A stretch of DNA of 64,000 nucleotides from Rhodospirillales bacterium (GTDB taxonomy: Bacteria > Pseudomonadota > Alphaproteobacteria > ATCC43930 > CGMCC-115725): NCBI GenBank assembly GCA_028288725.1, contig JAQGIC010000062.1:186001-250000 (forward strand). The letters are read 5' to 3'. Both the position numbers and the translations under genes were made by a program. The notes below the pieces were generated by a model. It was not told the origin of the DNA. It made no database searches and saw only the letters and a list, made by a program, of their open reading frames with translations. Each line of letters opens with the position of its first letter. Within the stretch, counting starts at the first letter, position 1. Below, piece by piece: positions 12,870 through 21,503 of this stretch.

Positions 12870-14018
12870 ATGAAGCCGCACCGCCGCCCGGATTGTAACC
12901 ATTTCTCGTCGGGTCCCTGCGCCAAGCGCCCCGGCTGGAGCCTGGCGGCATTGGGCGACGCGGTGATCGGCCGGTCCCATCGCTCCAGGCAAGGCAAGGA
13001 CCGCTTGGCTGAAGTGATCGCGCTCAGCCGCCGGATCCTGGGCGTACCCGACGATTACCGCATCGGCATCGTGCCCGGGTCGGACACGGGCGCGGTCGAG
13101 ATGGCGCTCTGGTCGCTGCTCGGCCCCCGCCCGGTCGATCTGCTCGCCTGGGAAAGCTTCGGCGATACCTGGGTCGCCGACGTGCTGAAGCAGCTGAAGC
13201 TGCCGGCGGCGCGCCGGATCGGTGCGGCCTATGGCCAATTGCCCGATCTGGGCGCGGTCGACCCGGCCCATGACCTGGTGTTTACCTGGAACGGCACGAC
13301 CTCCGGCGTGCGCGTGCCTGATGGCGATTGGATCTCGGACGCCCGGGAAGGCCTGGCGATCTGCGACGCGACCTCGGCCGCCTTCGCGATGGCGCTGCCG
13401 TGGCGCAAGCTGGATGTCGTGACCTGGTCCTGGCAGAAGGTGCTGGGCGGCGAGGCGGCCCATGGCATGATCGCCCTGAGCCCGCGCGCGGTCGAGCGGC
13501 TGGAAAGCCACGTGCCGTCCTGGCCGATGCCCAAGCTGTTCCGCATGACCGCTGCGGCCAAGCTGACCGAGGGCCTGTTCGAGGGCGAGACGATCAATAC
13601 GCCGTCGATGCTCGCGGTCGAAGATGCGGTCGATGGACTGAAATGGGCCGAAAGCATCGGCGGCCTCGACGGGCTGCTGGCTCGCACCCGGGCGAATTTC
13701 GCCGCGATCGAGCGCTGGGTCGCGGCCACGCCCTGGATCGAATTCCTGGCCGAAGATCCCGCGACCCGGTCGACCACCTCGGTCTGCCTGGTATTCGCCG
13801 ATGCCTGGTTCCGCGGCCTTGCGCCCGACGCGCAGGCGAAGGCGGCGAAGGATGTGGCGGCCAGGCTGGAGGCGGAGGGCGTGGCGCTCGATATCGGCAG
13901 CTATCGCGACGCGCCGGCGGGCCTGCGCCTCTGGGCCGGCGCCACGGTCGAGACCTCGGATATCGAGGCCCTGCTGCCCTGGATCGACTGGGCCTATGGC
14001 GAGGTCAGGCCCGCTTGA
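12870..14018 (+). CDS. serC: Phosphoserine aminotransferase (alphaproteobacterial type)
   Basis: Class V PLP aminotransferase of 382 residues converting 3-phosphohydroxypyruvate to phosphoserine. The N-terminus carries the conserved [12 protein letters not shown], then [17 protein letters not shown] for cofactor binding, and the Schiff-base lysine in [14 protein letters not shown] near residue 190. This longer type is typical of alphaproteobacteria. ATG 12870 follows CACAGGAAC. The next gene, after 43 bases, is hisZ; serA, which often lies between serC and hisZ/purA in relatives, is not there. Confidence 0.92.
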
Positions 14019-15341: not shown

Positions 15342-16634
<1,293 letters not shown>

Positions 16635-16775: not shown

Positions 16776-18803
16776 ATGGCGAAGCCCGTGGCGTCACCAG
16801 GGATGAAAGCGACGAGCGTGCGGCTGCACGATCGTTTCGAGATCCTATACGATGTACCGCTCGCCGACCTGCGCTCGCCCACCGCCCAGGCGTTCGATGT
16901 CGAAGACACGCGTTCGGTCGGTGGCAATTTCTTCGCGCTCATCGCCGATCCGACCCTGCCGCCGCGCGGGCAGGAACTCGGCATTCTGCGCATGATGAAG
17001 CACGAGGCGATCCTGACGCCGATCGATTTCGGCCCGGTCGATGGGGTGCAGGACAATCGCCGATGCCTGGCATTGATCTGCGAGCGGCCGGCCGGCGGCC
17101 GCCTGGTCGCCGGCAACGACCAGGTGATCACGCCCTGGTCGGACGATGAGATCATCCGTCGGCTGATCGAACCGGTCTTTCCGGGCCTCAAGGCGCTCTC
17201 GACCGAAAACACCACCCATCGATCGATCCGGCCGTCGAATATCCTGTTCCGGGATGCAGCCCGCCGGCACGCGATGCTGGGCGACTGCTTTACCGCGCCG
17301 ACCGCCTTCGATCAGCCGGTCGCCTACGAAACGATCGAGAACGCCATGGCGATGCCGACGGGGCGCGGCGTCGGCACCGTGTCGGACGATCTCTATGCCC
17401 TGGGCGTCACGGCGCTCCATCTGCTGATCGGCCGGTCGCCCGGCGGCGGCCTGAAGGGCGACGCGCTGATCGAGGAAAAGATCCGGCGCGGGTCCTACGC
17501 GGCGCTGTGCGGCGAACATCGCATTCCGACCATCCTGTATGAACTGCTGCGCGGCCTGCTGGTCGACGACCCGGCCGAACGCTGGGGCATTCGCGAGATC
17601 GATCTCTGGCTGCAGGGGCGTCGCATGGCGCCCAAGTCGCCCCCCAGCCCGCCGCGCGCCTCGCGCCCGATCGAGCTGAACGGCGAGCAGGTCTTCACGG
17701 CCCGCAGCGCCGCCCGCGCGCTCGTCCGCATGGGCGAGCAGTCGATCCACATCCTTCGCGGCCATACGCTCGAAGTCTGGCTGCAGCGTACGCTCGGGCA
17801 CAAGCTGAGCAGCGACAATTTCGCGATCGCCGTGGCCGATGTCGACGATACCAACGGCGCGGCCGGCGTCCACGATGCCCGGCTGCTCGCGCGGGTGGCA
17901 ATGGCGCTCGATCCGACCGCGCCGATCCGCTATCGCGGCCTGGCCGTGCAGCCCGAAGGGCTCGGCTGCGCGCTCGCCGTCGTCATGGCCCAGCGCGGCG
18001 ATCTGCGGCCGCTGGCCGAAATCCTGCTGGGGCGGTTGCCGCAATTCTGGTTCCGGTCCCAGCCGCTGCAGAAGATCGACCATCCCGTTCTGCTGATCGA
18101 ATTCGACCGGTTGCGCCGCCTGCTCGAGGATCATCGCCCCGGCCTCGGCATCGAACGGCTGGTCTATGACGCCAACCCCCTGTTGCATTGCTTGTCGCCG
18201 CTGATCGAGCGGGACTACGTCGACCAGTTGAACGACCTGCTGCCGGCGCTCGAGCGCGCGGTCGCCGGGGGGATGGTCGACAGCATGGTGGTCGATCGGC
18301 ATATCGCGGCCTTCGCCGCCAACCGGTCGAAGACGCTCGACGATCAGGTGCTGAGCGCGCTGGGGGAGGCGGACCCGGCCACGCGTTTGCTGGGACAGAT
18401 CTATCTGCTGGCGCTCATCCAGGCCCAGTGCGGCCCGGCGACCCTGCCGGCGCTGGCCCAGCTGCTGGGCAAACAGGCGAAGCCGGTCATCGAGCGCTAT
18501 CGCAGCCGCCAGACGCGCGCGCGGCTGGAAGGCCAGCTCGCGGCGGTGATCGCCGAGGGCAGCCTGACCCGCCTGGTGCATCTTCTGGATGATCTGTCCG
18601 AGCGCCAGGCCGATGCCCAGCGCTATGCGCAGGCCGGGCACCAATATTCCCGGGCCGAAGCCGGCCTCGAAAAGATCGAGTTCGAACGAGGGCAGATCGG
18701 CGAGGGTTCGAAGGATATGGGCGCCTTGATCGCGGCGGCGGTCTCGACCGTCGTCGGCGGCATCGCGATCGCGATGAGCCTCTATCATTTCGGCTATCTA
18801 TAG
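16776..18803 (+). CDS. Tail-anchored pseudokinase, copy 1
   Basis: A 675-residue protein with a degenerate eukaryotic-type kinase domain at about residues 15-285. The catalytic loop reads HRSIRPSNILF (148-158): the catalytic Asp of HRD is Ser150, while Asn155 is kept. The DFG position is GDC (169-171), D205 of the helix F block SDDLYALGVTALHLLIGR is kept, and R269 (DDPAERW) matches the late conserved Arg. No glycine loop or VAIK lysine is recognisable. Residues 300-640 are helical with no domain I recognise, and a single membrane helix near 648-668 ends the protein. No N-terminal signal is seen, so the bulk should be cytosolic. ATG 16803 is an alternative start. The gene is followed 8 bases later by a small membrane protein. 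Confidence 0.75.
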   Translation: MAKPVASPGMKATSVRLHDRFEILYDVPLADLRSPTAQAFDVEDTRSVGGNFFALIADPTLPPRGQELGILRMMKHEAILTPIDFGPVDGVQDNRRCLALICERPAGGRLVAGNDQVITPWSDDEIIRRLIEPVFPGLKALSTENTTHRSIRPSNILFRDAARRHAMLGDCFTAPTAFDQPVAYETIENAMAMPTGRGVGTVSDDLYALGVTALHLLIGRSPGGGLKGDALIEEKIRRGSYAALCGEHRIPTILYELLRGLLVDDPAERWGIREIDLWLQGRRMAPKSPPSPPRASRPIELNGEQVFTARSAARALVRMGEQSIHILRGHTLEVWLQRTLGHKLSSDNFAIAVADVDDTNGAAGVHDARLLARVAMALDPTAPIRYRGLAVQPEGLGCALAVVMAQRGDLRPLAEILLGRLPQFWFRSQPLQKIDHPVLLIEFDRLRRLLEDHRPGLGIERLVYDANPLLHCLSPLIERDYVDQLNDLLPALERAVAGGMVDSMVVDRHIAAFAANRSKTLDDQVLSALGEADPATRLLGQIYLLALIQAQCGPATLPALAQLLGKQAKPVIERYRSRQTRARLEGQLAAVIAEGSLTRLVHLLDDLSERQADAQRYAQAGHQYSRAEAGLEKIEFERGQIGEGSKDMGALIAAAVSTVVGGIAIAMSLYHFGYL

Positions 18804-18811
18804 CGGCGACC

Positions 18812-19357
18812 ATGGCGAAACTCCCCGCGATCCCGGCGATCCCCCCCCAGTCCGTGCCGCTCGACGCCCAGGCGCGCCGCGCGGTCGCGCGTCGGGCGAT
18901 GCGACCGCCGTCCAAGAAGGGCGGCGGGTTTCAGCTGTTCCTGCTGGGCGTGGGTGTCATCGCTCTGGCAGTGTTCGCGGCACCCACCTGCGTGCTGATG
19001 GTATTCGGCATGGTGCCCAGCATCGTCGCCTATGTGGTCGACCGGGGTAAGCGGCCGATGCTGGCCTTCACCATCGCCCCGCTCAATCTGGCCGGGCTTA
19101 TGCCCTATCTGCTGGAGCTTTGGACCGGGCACGATCAGATGCCGACGGTGGTGCATCTGCTGACCAACGTCTATGTCTGGCTCGTGATCTATCTGTCGGC
19201 CGGGGCCGGCTGGCTGGTGTTCATGGGCATGCCTCAGGTCATGACTTTCGTGCTTCAGCGCTCGCTCGACGGGCGGAAAGAAAAACTTAAGGCACTTCAG
19301 AGCAAGCTGCGCGCGGACTGGGGCCCGCAAGTGGGTGGCGGCGAGGATCAAATATAA
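18812..19357 (+). CDS. Small membrane protein, partner of pseudokinase copy 1
   Basis: A 181-residue protein that I cannot assign to a family. It has a basic N-terminal tail (RRAVARRAMRPPSKK), a hydrophobic helix near residues 40-75 (FLLGVGVIALAVFAAP and VLMVFGMVPSIVAYVVD), the block TIAPLNLAGLMPYLLELW, further hydrophobic segments near 115-150, and a charged, probably coiled C-terminus (KEKLKALQSKLRADWGPQV). The same blocks recur in the protein at 21504-22046. Overlap-like spacing with the upstream pseudokinase suggests the two act together. Confidence 0.7.
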   Translation: MAKLPAIPAIPPQSVPLDAQARRAVARRAMRPPSKKGGGFQLFLLGVGVIALAVFAAPTCVLMVFGMVPSIVAYVVDRGKRPMLAFTIAPLNLAGLMPYLLELWTGHDQMPTVVHLLTNVYVWLVIYLSAGAGWLVFMGMPQVMTFVLQRSLDGRKEKLKALQSKLRADWGPQVGGGEDQI

Positions 19358-19460: not shown

Positions 19461-21503
19461 ATGTCGGTCCAGCCGCAAGCGAACCCCAGTATGTCGACAA
19501 CGTCTGGGGCGACGGTGCGACTGAAGGATCGTTTCGACATCCATTATGACAAACCGTTGCCCGGTTTGCGCTCGCCTGCCGCACCGGCCTTTGTCGCCGA
19601 AGATATCAAGACCCCCGGCACCCGCCATTTCGCCCTGATCTGCGATCCGAAGATGCCGCCTCGGCTGGAGGCGGTGCGGAAACTGCAGATGCTGAAGAGC
19701 TATGGCGTGCTGACGCCGGTCGAGGTCGGCGCGGTCGATTGGGCGCCGGCCAATCGGCGCATGTTCGCCATGGTGTTCGAACAGCCGCTCGGCGACCGGC
19801 TGGCCGGACCGACCGACAATGCCATCACGCCCTGGGGCGAGGAGGCGCTGGTCGCCCATGTCGTCGCCCCGCTCGTGCAGACCCTGCTCGATCTCGACCG
19901 CGAGATGCTGCCGCATCGCGGCATCCGGCCGGGCAATATCTTCTTCCGCGACGCCAACCGGCGGATCGCCATGCTCGGCGACTGCGTGACCGCGCCGCCG
20001 GGTCTGTATCAGTCGGTCGTCTACGAGACGATCGAGGGCGGCCTGGCCCAGTCCCATACGCGGGGGTCCGGCACGACGGCGCAGGATCTCTATGCGCTCG
20101 GCGTGCTGGTGCTGCATCTGCTGTTCGGCAAGCTGCCCTGCGCCGGACAGACCGAAGAGAAGATCGTCGAGGACAAGATCAAGCGCGGCTCGTTCTACGC
20201 GCTGGTCAGCGAACAGCGGGTGCCCACCGGCCTCAGCGAACTGCTGCGCGGCTTGCTGGTCGACGACCCGCAGGCCCGCTGGCGTCTGGGCGACATCCAG
20301 ATGTGGCTCGACGGCCGCCGCATGACGCTGAAGCAGCCGGCCCCGGCGATCCGGGCGCCGCGCGGCTTCGAGATCGACGGCGAGGAATGCGAAACGGCGC
20401 GGCATCTGGCGCTGATGCTCGACATGCAGGAGCCCGAGGTGGCCGGCCGCATCCTGCGCGGCCCGAATTTCGAGACCTGGATTACCCGGACGCTCGGCGA
20501 CAAGCAGGTGGTCGAGGCGATCAACACCGCCTTTTCCACCCGCAGCGAATCGGCGGCCGGGACGTCCGGTCAGACCGCCCAGCTGGTCAGCCGCGTGCTG
20601 ATGGCGCTCGATCCGCCGGCGCCGATCCGCTTCCGCGACGCGGCCACCGCCGTGGACGGCATTGGCGCGCTGCTGGCCGTTACCATGCTGACCGGCGGCG
20701 ATCTGATGCTGCCGTCGGAGATTCTGAGCGCGCGCCTGCCGCAATTCTGGAGTCTGCGCCAGGGGTCGGCCAAGGGCGAGGATCAGGCGACGATCCGCTT
20801 CTTCGACAAGATGCTGCGCTATCTCGACGACAAGCGCCCGGGCTACGGCATCGAGCGCGTCGCCTACGAGATGATGCCGGGCCTGCACTGTCTGTCGCCC
20901 TTCATCGAAGCCCGCTATGTCGAGCAGATGAGGGATATGCTGCCCGCGATCGAATTCGCGGTGCAGGCCAAGACGATCGACGTGTCGCCGATCGATCGCC
21001 ATATCGCGGCCTTCATCGGGGTCTATGAAAACAATGTCGATGACGGGCTGCTCTATACGCTGATCCACGCGGATCCGGCGACGCGCGTGCTGGGTACGCT
21101 GCAGCTGCTGGCCTATCTGCAGGAGACCTATGGGCCGCCGATGGTGCCGTCGCTGATCCAATTGTTCGGCCAGCAGGCGAAGCCGGTGATCGAACGGTTC
21201 CGCAGCCGCTACACGCGCGCGCGGATGCAGACCGGCCTGACGGCGATCCTCAAGGAAAACAGCCTGCGCAAGCTGGCGGACTATCTCGATAGCGCCGATG
21301 AGCAGCGCAAGGACGCTCAACGATTCCAGAAGGCGCGGCTCGAATACCAGCAGACGATCAAGCAGGTGGAAAAGGCGACGCAGCAGACCGGTGAATTGAT
21401 GTCGACGGCCAAGTTGGCCGGTCATTCGGTCGCGGTGAAGATCGCAAGCCTGATTTCCAGCGCGATCATCGGGGTCACCCTGTTCGCCATGGGCGTGCTT
21501 TAG
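19461..21503 (+). CDS. Tail-anchored pseudokinase, copy 2
   Basis: A 680-residue paralogue of the protein at 16776, colinear from VRLKDRFDIHYD to the C-terminal membrane helix. The catalytic loop is HRGIRPGNIFF (152-162), with Gly154 in place of the catalytic Asp and Asn159 kept; GDC stands at the DFG position (173-175); D209 in QDLYALGVLVLHLL and R273 are kept. The helical C-terminal half shares long blocks with copy 1, such as IERVAYEMMPGLHCLSPFIE, VSPIDRHIAAFIGV, DPATRVLG and QAKPVIERFRSRYTRARM. ATG 19461 has AAAGG five bases upstream; ATG 19491 is an alternative. The stop is directly followed by the next ATG. Confidence 0.75.
   Translation: MSVQPQANPSMSTTSGATVRLKDRFDIHYDKPLPGLRSPAAPAFVAEDIKTPGTRHFALICDPKMPPRLEAVRKLQMLKSYGVLTPVEVGAVDWAPANRRMFAMVFEQPLGDRLAGPTDNAITPWGEEALVAHVVAPLVQTLLDLDREMLPHRGIRPGNIFFRDANRRIAMLGDCVTAPPGLYQSVVYETIEGGLAQSHTRGSGTTAQDLYALGVLVLHLLFGKLPCAGQTEEKIVEDKIKRGSFYALVSEQRVPTGLSELLRGLLVDDPQARWRLGDIQMWLDGRRMTLKQPAPAIRAPRGFEIDGEECETARHLALMLDMQEPEVAGRILRGPNFETWITRTLGDKQVVEAINTAFSTRSESAAGTSGQTAQLVSRVLMALDPPAPIRFRDAATAVDGIGALLAVTMLTGGDLMLPSEILSARLPQFWSLRQGSAKGEDQATIRFFDKMLRYLDDKRPGYGIERVAYEMMPGLHCLSPFIEARYVEQMRDMLPAIEFAVQAKTIDVSPIDRHIAAFIGVYENNVDDGLLYTLIHADPATRVLGTLQLLAYLQETYGPPMVPSLIQLFGQQAKPVIERFRSRYTRARMQTGLTAILKENSLRKLADYLDSADEQRKDAQRFQKARLEYQQTIKQVEKATQQTGELMSTAKLAGHSVAVKIASLISSAIIGVTLFAMGVL

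Follow-up and report, generated by a model that had tools for sequence, protein, structure and literature searches.

A tandem two-gene unit between purA and rpoH

The window analysed here, a 64,000-nucleotide stretch of a Rhodospirillales genome, contains a two-gene unit in tandem duplicate, each unit comprising a gene for a kinase-fold protein and a gene for a membrane protein of about 180 residues. The two kinase-fold proteins, copy 1 and copy 2, are 45% identical over their entire length, and their membrane partners are 31% identical. The duplicated units lie downstream of purA and converge on an rpoH-type sigma factor gene, with a pseudouridine synthase gene beside the latter, also on the minus strand and downstream of both units.

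15342–16634, + strand: purA, upstream neighbour (Pfam PF00709, E = 7.1e-178)
16776–18803, + strand: copy 1 pseudokinase, 675 aa, predicted tail anchor (kinase fold aa 14–282, helical domain aa 300–606)
17637–18593, + strand: C-terminal helical domain of copy 1, aa 288–606
18812–19357, + strand: membrane partner of copy 1, 181 aa, 8 bases past the end of copy 1
19461–21503, + strand: copy 2, the paralogue of copy 1, 680 aa
21504–22046, + strand: membrane partner of copy 2, 180 aa
22079–22966, − strand: rpoH-type sigma factor, convergent neighbour (sigma-70 domains)

In the annotated Azospirillum thermophilum record the order is serC, hisZ, purA, 'serine/threonine protein kinase', hypothetical protein and rpoH, with the unit in single copy; most Azospirillum carry a single purA-linked pair. 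The labels hisZ and serC that we use upstream of purA in the window are assigned by position from this annotated Azospirillum record, and a Pfam scan of the reading frame at 12870–14015 returned no match.

A predicted kinase fold joined to a helical domain and a membrane helix

Copy 1 matches the Pfam Pkinase profile (PF00069) with an E value of 1.1e-7 and 31.9 bits, above the 31.7 cut-off, and copy 2 with 2.2e-6 and 27.7 bits, below it. Pkinase is the only Pfam family matched by either copy at E values up to 10, the SelO and YukC profiles being absent. AlphaFold2 models copy 1 with a mean pLDDT of 95.1 and a pTM of 0.89, placing a kinase fold at residues 10–282 or thereabouts, then a helical domain, then a long helix and a membrane helix at residues 607–674. 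Against solved kinases the model aligns over about 250 residues with a Z score of about 23 and an rmsd of about 3 Å; the top matches, WNK, ULK1, CaMKK2, ASK1, Aurora and PknB, are tied at Z 22–23. The two-lobed kinase fold predicted for both proteins is not a product of chance.

For family-wide comparisons we used a set of 141 rows, made up of 139 homologues and the two window copies, which remained from 150 frames after removal of 4 duplicates of the window and 5 fragments shorter than 480 aa. A membrane helix is predicted by hydropathy within the final 40 residues in 127 of these 141 sequences. The helical domain carries a tyrosine and a cysteine, Tyr464 and Cys472, that are invariant (141/141). 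Modelled alone, it reaches a pLDDT of 95.7 and a pTM of 0.90. Structural searches of the PDB gave a best Foldseek E value of 1.3 and a best VIA Z score of 3.9 over 765 Foldseek-proposed chains; PDB sequence profiles gave no match below E 0.2, and no two of 128 members shared a Pfam family (the domain alignment holds 128 of 138 usable C-terminal stretches). This domain is of interest as a confident model with no PDB counterpart in these searches, although a failed search does not establish that the fold is novel.

A role as a defence system was considered and rejected: the PADLOC and NCBIfam matches to MkoA, MAD6 and PD-T4-6 score 20–38 bits (MAD6 34–35 bits, where NCBIfam sets a cut-off of 460) and fall only within the kinase domain, and we take them as general kinase similarity.

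Two of three catalytic residues are missing from both copies

Active-site positions were assigned by alignment of the copies with each other, with the family and with L166, a related kinase whose catalytic residues are intact.

16938–16940, + strand: copy 1 Leu55, VAIK-lysine place, ungapped opposite the Lys of L166
17223–17225, + strand: copy 1 Ser150 (H148-R149-S150), HRD-aspartate place, by the family alignment and L166
17238–17240, + strand: copy 1 Asn155, catalytic-loop Asn, kept (N in 136/141)
17283–17285, + strand: copy 1 Asp170 (G169-D170-C171 at 17280–17288), DFG-aspartate register, by alignment with L166
17388–17390, + strand: copy 1 Asp205, helix-F Asp (D in 139 and E in 2 of 141)
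17580–17582, + strand: copy 1 Arg269, late Arg (R in 140/141)
19635–19637, + strand: copy 2 Leu59, VAIK-lysine place, by alignment with copy 1 and L166
19920–19922, + strand: copy 2 Gly154 (H152-R153-G154), HRD-aspartate place, by alignment with L166
19980–19982, + strand: copy 2 Asp174 (G173-D174-C175 at 19977–19985), DFG-aspartate register, by alignment with L166

The remaining copy 2 equivalents, catalytic-loop Asn159, helix-F Asp209 and late Arg273, are all present. No gaps fall between HRD and DFG, the ADFG of L166 aligns opposite GDC[F/V], and the Asn-to-Asp spacing is 15 residues in L166 and in the window copies alike. In this register (G-D-C-F/V versus x-D-F-G) the DFG aspartate is retained, and the Phe and Gly alone are replaced. 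In canonical kinases strand β8 ends directly before DFG; in the copy 1 model the strand at residues 166–168 runs straight into G169-D170.

Both copies lack two of the three canonical residues, the β3 lysine and the HRD aspartate, and have the third, the DFG aspartate. Neither copy has the set of VAIK lysine, HRD aspartate and DFG aspartate expected of an active Ser/Thr kinase, and judged by sequence both are pseudokinases under the usual definition (loss of at least one of the three). The annotation 'serine/threonine protein kinase' carried by family members in two Azospirillum records (NZ_CP029356.1 and NZ_CP029830.1) is probably wrong, and the label 'hypothetical' given there to the membrane partner carries no information.

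The original prediction had read HRS in copy 1 and HRG in copy 2, a retained catalytic-loop Asn, helix-F Asp and late Arg, and no visible VAIK lysine, and the alignments bear out each of these. It had also placed GDC where DFG is expected; the GDC is there in both copies, but a loss of the DFG aspartate is not, as the Asp of GDC aligns with the DFG aspartate of L166.

Across the family the HRD aspartate place is held by Ala in 70 sequences, Ser in 19, Gly in 17, Asn in 14, Arg in 7, Cys and Glu in 3 each, Lys, Met and Thr in 2 each, and Asp and Gln in 1 each (n = 141), so that D or E occurs there in 4. The first position of the motif is His in 134/141, and Gly never appears in its counts. At the β3 lysine place (column 55) not one of the 141 sequences has Lys and the residue is hydrophobic (L87, Y20, I9, M8); two have Lys at column 56. 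Position 170, that of the DFG aspartate, is Glu in 74, Asp in 49, Gln in 10 and Pro in 8, giving an acid in 123/141, and 121/141 sequences combine Asn155 with such an acid. Two arginines are also widely kept, Arg152 in 118 and Arg64 in 133 of the 141. Elsewhere in the N-lobe we found no conserved αC glutamate (best column of 64–75, 21/141), no Gly-rich loop (columns 14–49 all at or below 30% Gly, save one at 41%) and, across residues 14–104, no conserved column for a displaced lysine (highest Lys column, 23%). A second set of 79 named loci, partly overlapping the 141, gave the catalytic-loop Asn in 79/79, an acid at position 170 in 77/79, Asp at the HRD place in 3/79 and no Lys at either column 55 or column 56 (0/79). 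These counts match the earlier view that the fold-keeping residues are preserved and the chemistry is not: the β3 lysine and HRD aspartate are missing and the fold residues are conserved class-wide.

A few members depart from this pattern. Only L037 (1486–3531, − strand) has regained Asp at the HRD place (HGDIRPTN; 1/141), and its β3 lysine is still absent. L139 and L144, a related pair, have VCLK in strand β3 with the Lys one column off, and Asn or Ser at the HRD place.

One ancestral loss and a later duplication

We reconstructed the history of the HRD position on a tree of 146 rows built from the kinase part with the HRD column excluded, including 5 outgroup rows that bear HRD. It was inferred by a rapid method (LG+G4, SH-aLRT as sole support); its outgroup branches are long, and some members were flagged. 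By parsimony, the distinction between D and not-D takes 2 changes, one ancestral loss and one regain, a count that depends on the outgroups truly lying outside the family; all residue states together take approximately 53. The original prediction held that the catalytic Asp had been lost in different ways in the two copies, and the tree, with its single ancestral loss, leads us to reject two independent losses. Within the family alone the HRD column changes 52 times against a median of 55 over 273 columns, at the 47th percentile of variability, and His148 (6 changes), Asn155 (4), Gly169 (4), Asp205, Asp264 and Arg269, with 1 to 6 changes, are among the slowest columns. The Ser of copy 1 and the Gly of copy 2 thus read as drift at a released site, where the residue no longer matters much.

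Each window copy pairs with its own counterpart in a genome of the same genus, G010 (68% and 75% identity), and the four sequences lie close together, indicating that the duplication predates the split from G010 and postdates the catalytic loss. Nei–Gojobori dN/dS values against G010 are 0.42 for copy 1, 0.32 for copy 2, 0.36 and 0.34 for the partners, and 0.11 for purA. Purifying selection keeps both copies and both partners, under weaker constraint than the housekeeping enzyme. Another tandem pair of the pseudokinase gene is found at L106 (3471–8163, − strand) in genome G155, of another lineage, so the gene has been duplicated more than once.

A membrane partner and a conserved neighbourhood

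A membrane partner gene adjoins the pseudokinase gene downstream in 130/141 loci, a count that includes 4 in which the partner motif lies in a long frame overlapping the pseudokinase gene (126 + 4); it is absent in 7, and in 4 the sequence ends too early. The median gap between the two genes is 8 bases (133 partner starts placed, with a few loci counted twice), and 136 partner frames have 1 to 4 predicted membrane helices. Among 100 of the 133 placed partners no Pfam family occurs in more than one member. The 7 loci without an adjacent partner indicate that the partner is not always obligate in cis; these are L084, L099, L103, L107, L104, L125 and L127, and in at least some cases the unpaired gene is a second copy whose genome carries a paired one as well. 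The genes behind the pseudokinase copies at L087 and L100 look TadE/TadG-like by eye.

The neighbourhood extends beyond the pair. Upstream, purA is present on the same strand at 121/221 loci, with 85 having room for it and lacking it and 15 lacking the room; rpoH is present downstream at 103/221, and both genes at 76. Counted by kinase clades at 55% identity, purA accompanies 65/111 and rpoH 55/111. No secretion genes were found beside the pseudokinase in the window or in the two annotated Azospirillum records (loci L258 and L259). Pseudokinase matches occur in 133/387 sampled genomes of the class, the weakest of which (for example, G247 at 9.4e-4 and G344 at 1.6e-4) may be other kinases. In a sample of 397 genomes drawn from the phylum, full-length matches are confined to the same class, and matches elsewhere cover the kinase part, or the kinase part and some of the next domain. 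Vertical retention of the pair between purA and rpoH in many alphaproteobacterial lineages points to a fundamental role in the cell.

Elsewhere in the window's genome there is one Pkinase match, an unlinked LRR-kinase of 436 aa (L257, G000:C9:38721-39212) with HGD, N and DFG in place. As this is the sole other match, nothing nearby suggests that the pseudokinases regulate an active kinase encoded next to them.

A probable non-catalytic binding module at the inner membrane

We propose that both copies are probably non-catalytic binding modules at the inner membrane that act with a co-encoded membrane partner. Both would belong to one ancient alphaproteobacterial family of tail-anchored, catalytically dead proteins, in which catalysis would have been lost once, ahead of the radiation of the family and long ahead of the duplication in the window. 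The kinase-shaped and helical domains would be cytoplasmic and held to the inner membrane by the predicted C-terminal helix. The parts that may bring in or orient a further protein are the conserved C-lobe, the activation segment and the helical domain. The small membrane protein of the downstream gene would be an obligate partner in physical contact with the pseudokinase. The original prediction had likewise suggested that selection acts on binding or scaffolding, which remains the best reading, with the purifying dN/dS of both copies in its favour; the SelO-like alternative that it added is not supported. A rival to the proposal in which the genes are decaying kinase relics with no present function would account for the degraded catalytic motifs and for a constraint below that of purA, but the full-length open frames, the conserved gene order and partner, the class-wide invariant residues and dN/dS values well below 1 in both copies make it extremely improbable.

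The alternative that weighs most is a ligand-sensing pseudokinase whose old site binds a nucleotide or phosphate ligand, with or without metal, and signals to the partner. The Mg-binding pair of active kinases, Asn155 and the acid at position 170, is kept beyond what a pure scaffold would need, and the same holds for Arg152 and Arg64; Asn155, Asp/Glu170, Arg152 and perhaps Arg64 are the candidate contacts, and the related DLHK pseudokinases have been proposed to bind ATP through arginines (PMC12599244). Against this, the β3 lysine has given way to hydrophobic residues and both the Gly-rich loop and the αC glutamate are missing. We regard ligand sensing as possible but doubtful, and it is compatible with the binding-module reading. 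Equally tentative is a fuller picture of a class-wide inner-membrane sensor, in which the Asn/acid pair and the arginines might bind a ligand and the Tyr/Cys-bearing helical domain, whose fold would be new to the PDB, might relay the signal to the partner. An altered enzyme performing another transfer on the kinase fold, such as SelO-type AMPylation or SidJ-type glutamylation, would draw on the same retained acid and Asn and on the precedent of several pseudokinases that proved to be enzymes (PMC12599244). SelO and SidJ have VAIK-type lysines according to that paper, but the family has none at that place and the Pfam matches of the two window copies (E up to 10) comprise Pkinase only; with the lysine gone, SelO-like AMPylation is unlikely, and we consider altered enzymes as a group improbable. 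In WNK the lysine is located in another strand, and WNK1 and WNK3 head the list of structural matches (Z 23.3), though tied with many kinases. A working kinase with its catalytic residues displaced in this manner is nevertheless highly improbable, since no N-lobe lysine is conserved and an acid at the HRD place is rare. WNK-like and SelO-like chemistries were both rejected, with no displaced lysine and no SelO profile match found.

Comparison with known systems

Searches of the literature turned up no paper describing this family, which is apparently undescribed, and a name for it may exist in the family atlas behind PMC12599244 (its ref. 72). By motif the family is neither GLW nor DLHK, and it fits none of the pseudokinase families compared here from that 2025 review. 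In GLW pseudokinases GLW replaces HRD (PMC12599244), whereas the window family mostly has His first. EssB/YukC of the T7SSb is a membrane-tied bacterial pseudokinase that serves as a non-catalytic scaffold (PMC12599244), and the window family resembles it as a bacterial membrane-linked pseudokinase but has no YukC Pfam match (E up to 10) and carries another domain behind the kinase fold. MviN is likewise a membrane protein with a kinase domain, fully degraded in its case: its pseudokinase domain (ActPs3) is listed with Lsidhpsr, no HRD-like His or Asn and no DFG Asp (table in PMC12599244), whereas the window family conserves His148, Asn155 and the acid at 170. SelO shares with the family a kinase fold, an altered HRD and a retained metal-binding acid, and differs in keeping its β3 lysine (WHLK); SidJ has VAVK and requires K367 (Table 1 and text of PMC12599244).

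Among the pseudokinase families compared, the DLHK pseudokinases (O'Boyle et al. 2025, PMC12599244) are the closest relatives. Table 1 of that paper gives AVLT, Hrdlrpas and GFG for this group, of which the Pseudomonas aeruginosa protein Q9I0B5 is a member, and the paper proposes that ATP is bound via active-site arginines, one of them in the catalytic loop. Four of our sequences of about 2100 aa, L167–L170, have HRD, lack the Lys (T in L167–L169) and have GFG or SFG for DFG, motifs that agree with the DLHK pseudokinase-helicases of PMC12599244 as there described. Their overlap with the window family spans the kinase domain plus the opening 90 residues of the C-terminal domain, and the C-terminal profile alone finds L168, L174, L170 and, weakly, L169 (E 1e-6 to 1e-4, 149 frames). 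Sections 4, 13 and 14 of PMC12599244 do not mention this link of about 90 post-kinase residues between DLHK-type proteins (L167–L170, L174) and the family. DLHK proteins and the window family are thus alike in a kinase fold without the β3 lysine and in a segment at about residues 300–392. DLHK proteins keep the HRD aspartate, have GFG at DFG, lack a membrane helix and are joined to a helicase, whereas the window family has lost the HRD aspartate (D in 1/141), keeps Asp or Glu at the DFG place and has a C-terminal membrane helix, a membrane partner and no helicase.

L166 (879 aa, genome G431, from another proteobacterial class) matches the family profile at positions 61–450 with 111.8 bits, covering the kinase and the first half of the C-terminal domain. 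Its C-terminus likewise forms hydrophobic helices, and it differs in that Lys, HRD and DFG are all intact; a search of 30 genomes of its class found no second sequence of this kind. A kinase with its following segment may have stayed active in L166 and become half-degraded in the DLHK proteins; in the window family it would have degraded while gaining an extended domain and a partner, a direction drawn from few outgroup sequences. Together, the intact L166 and the half-intact DLHK proteins form a gradation along which the change of a kinase domain into a binding domain can be studied.
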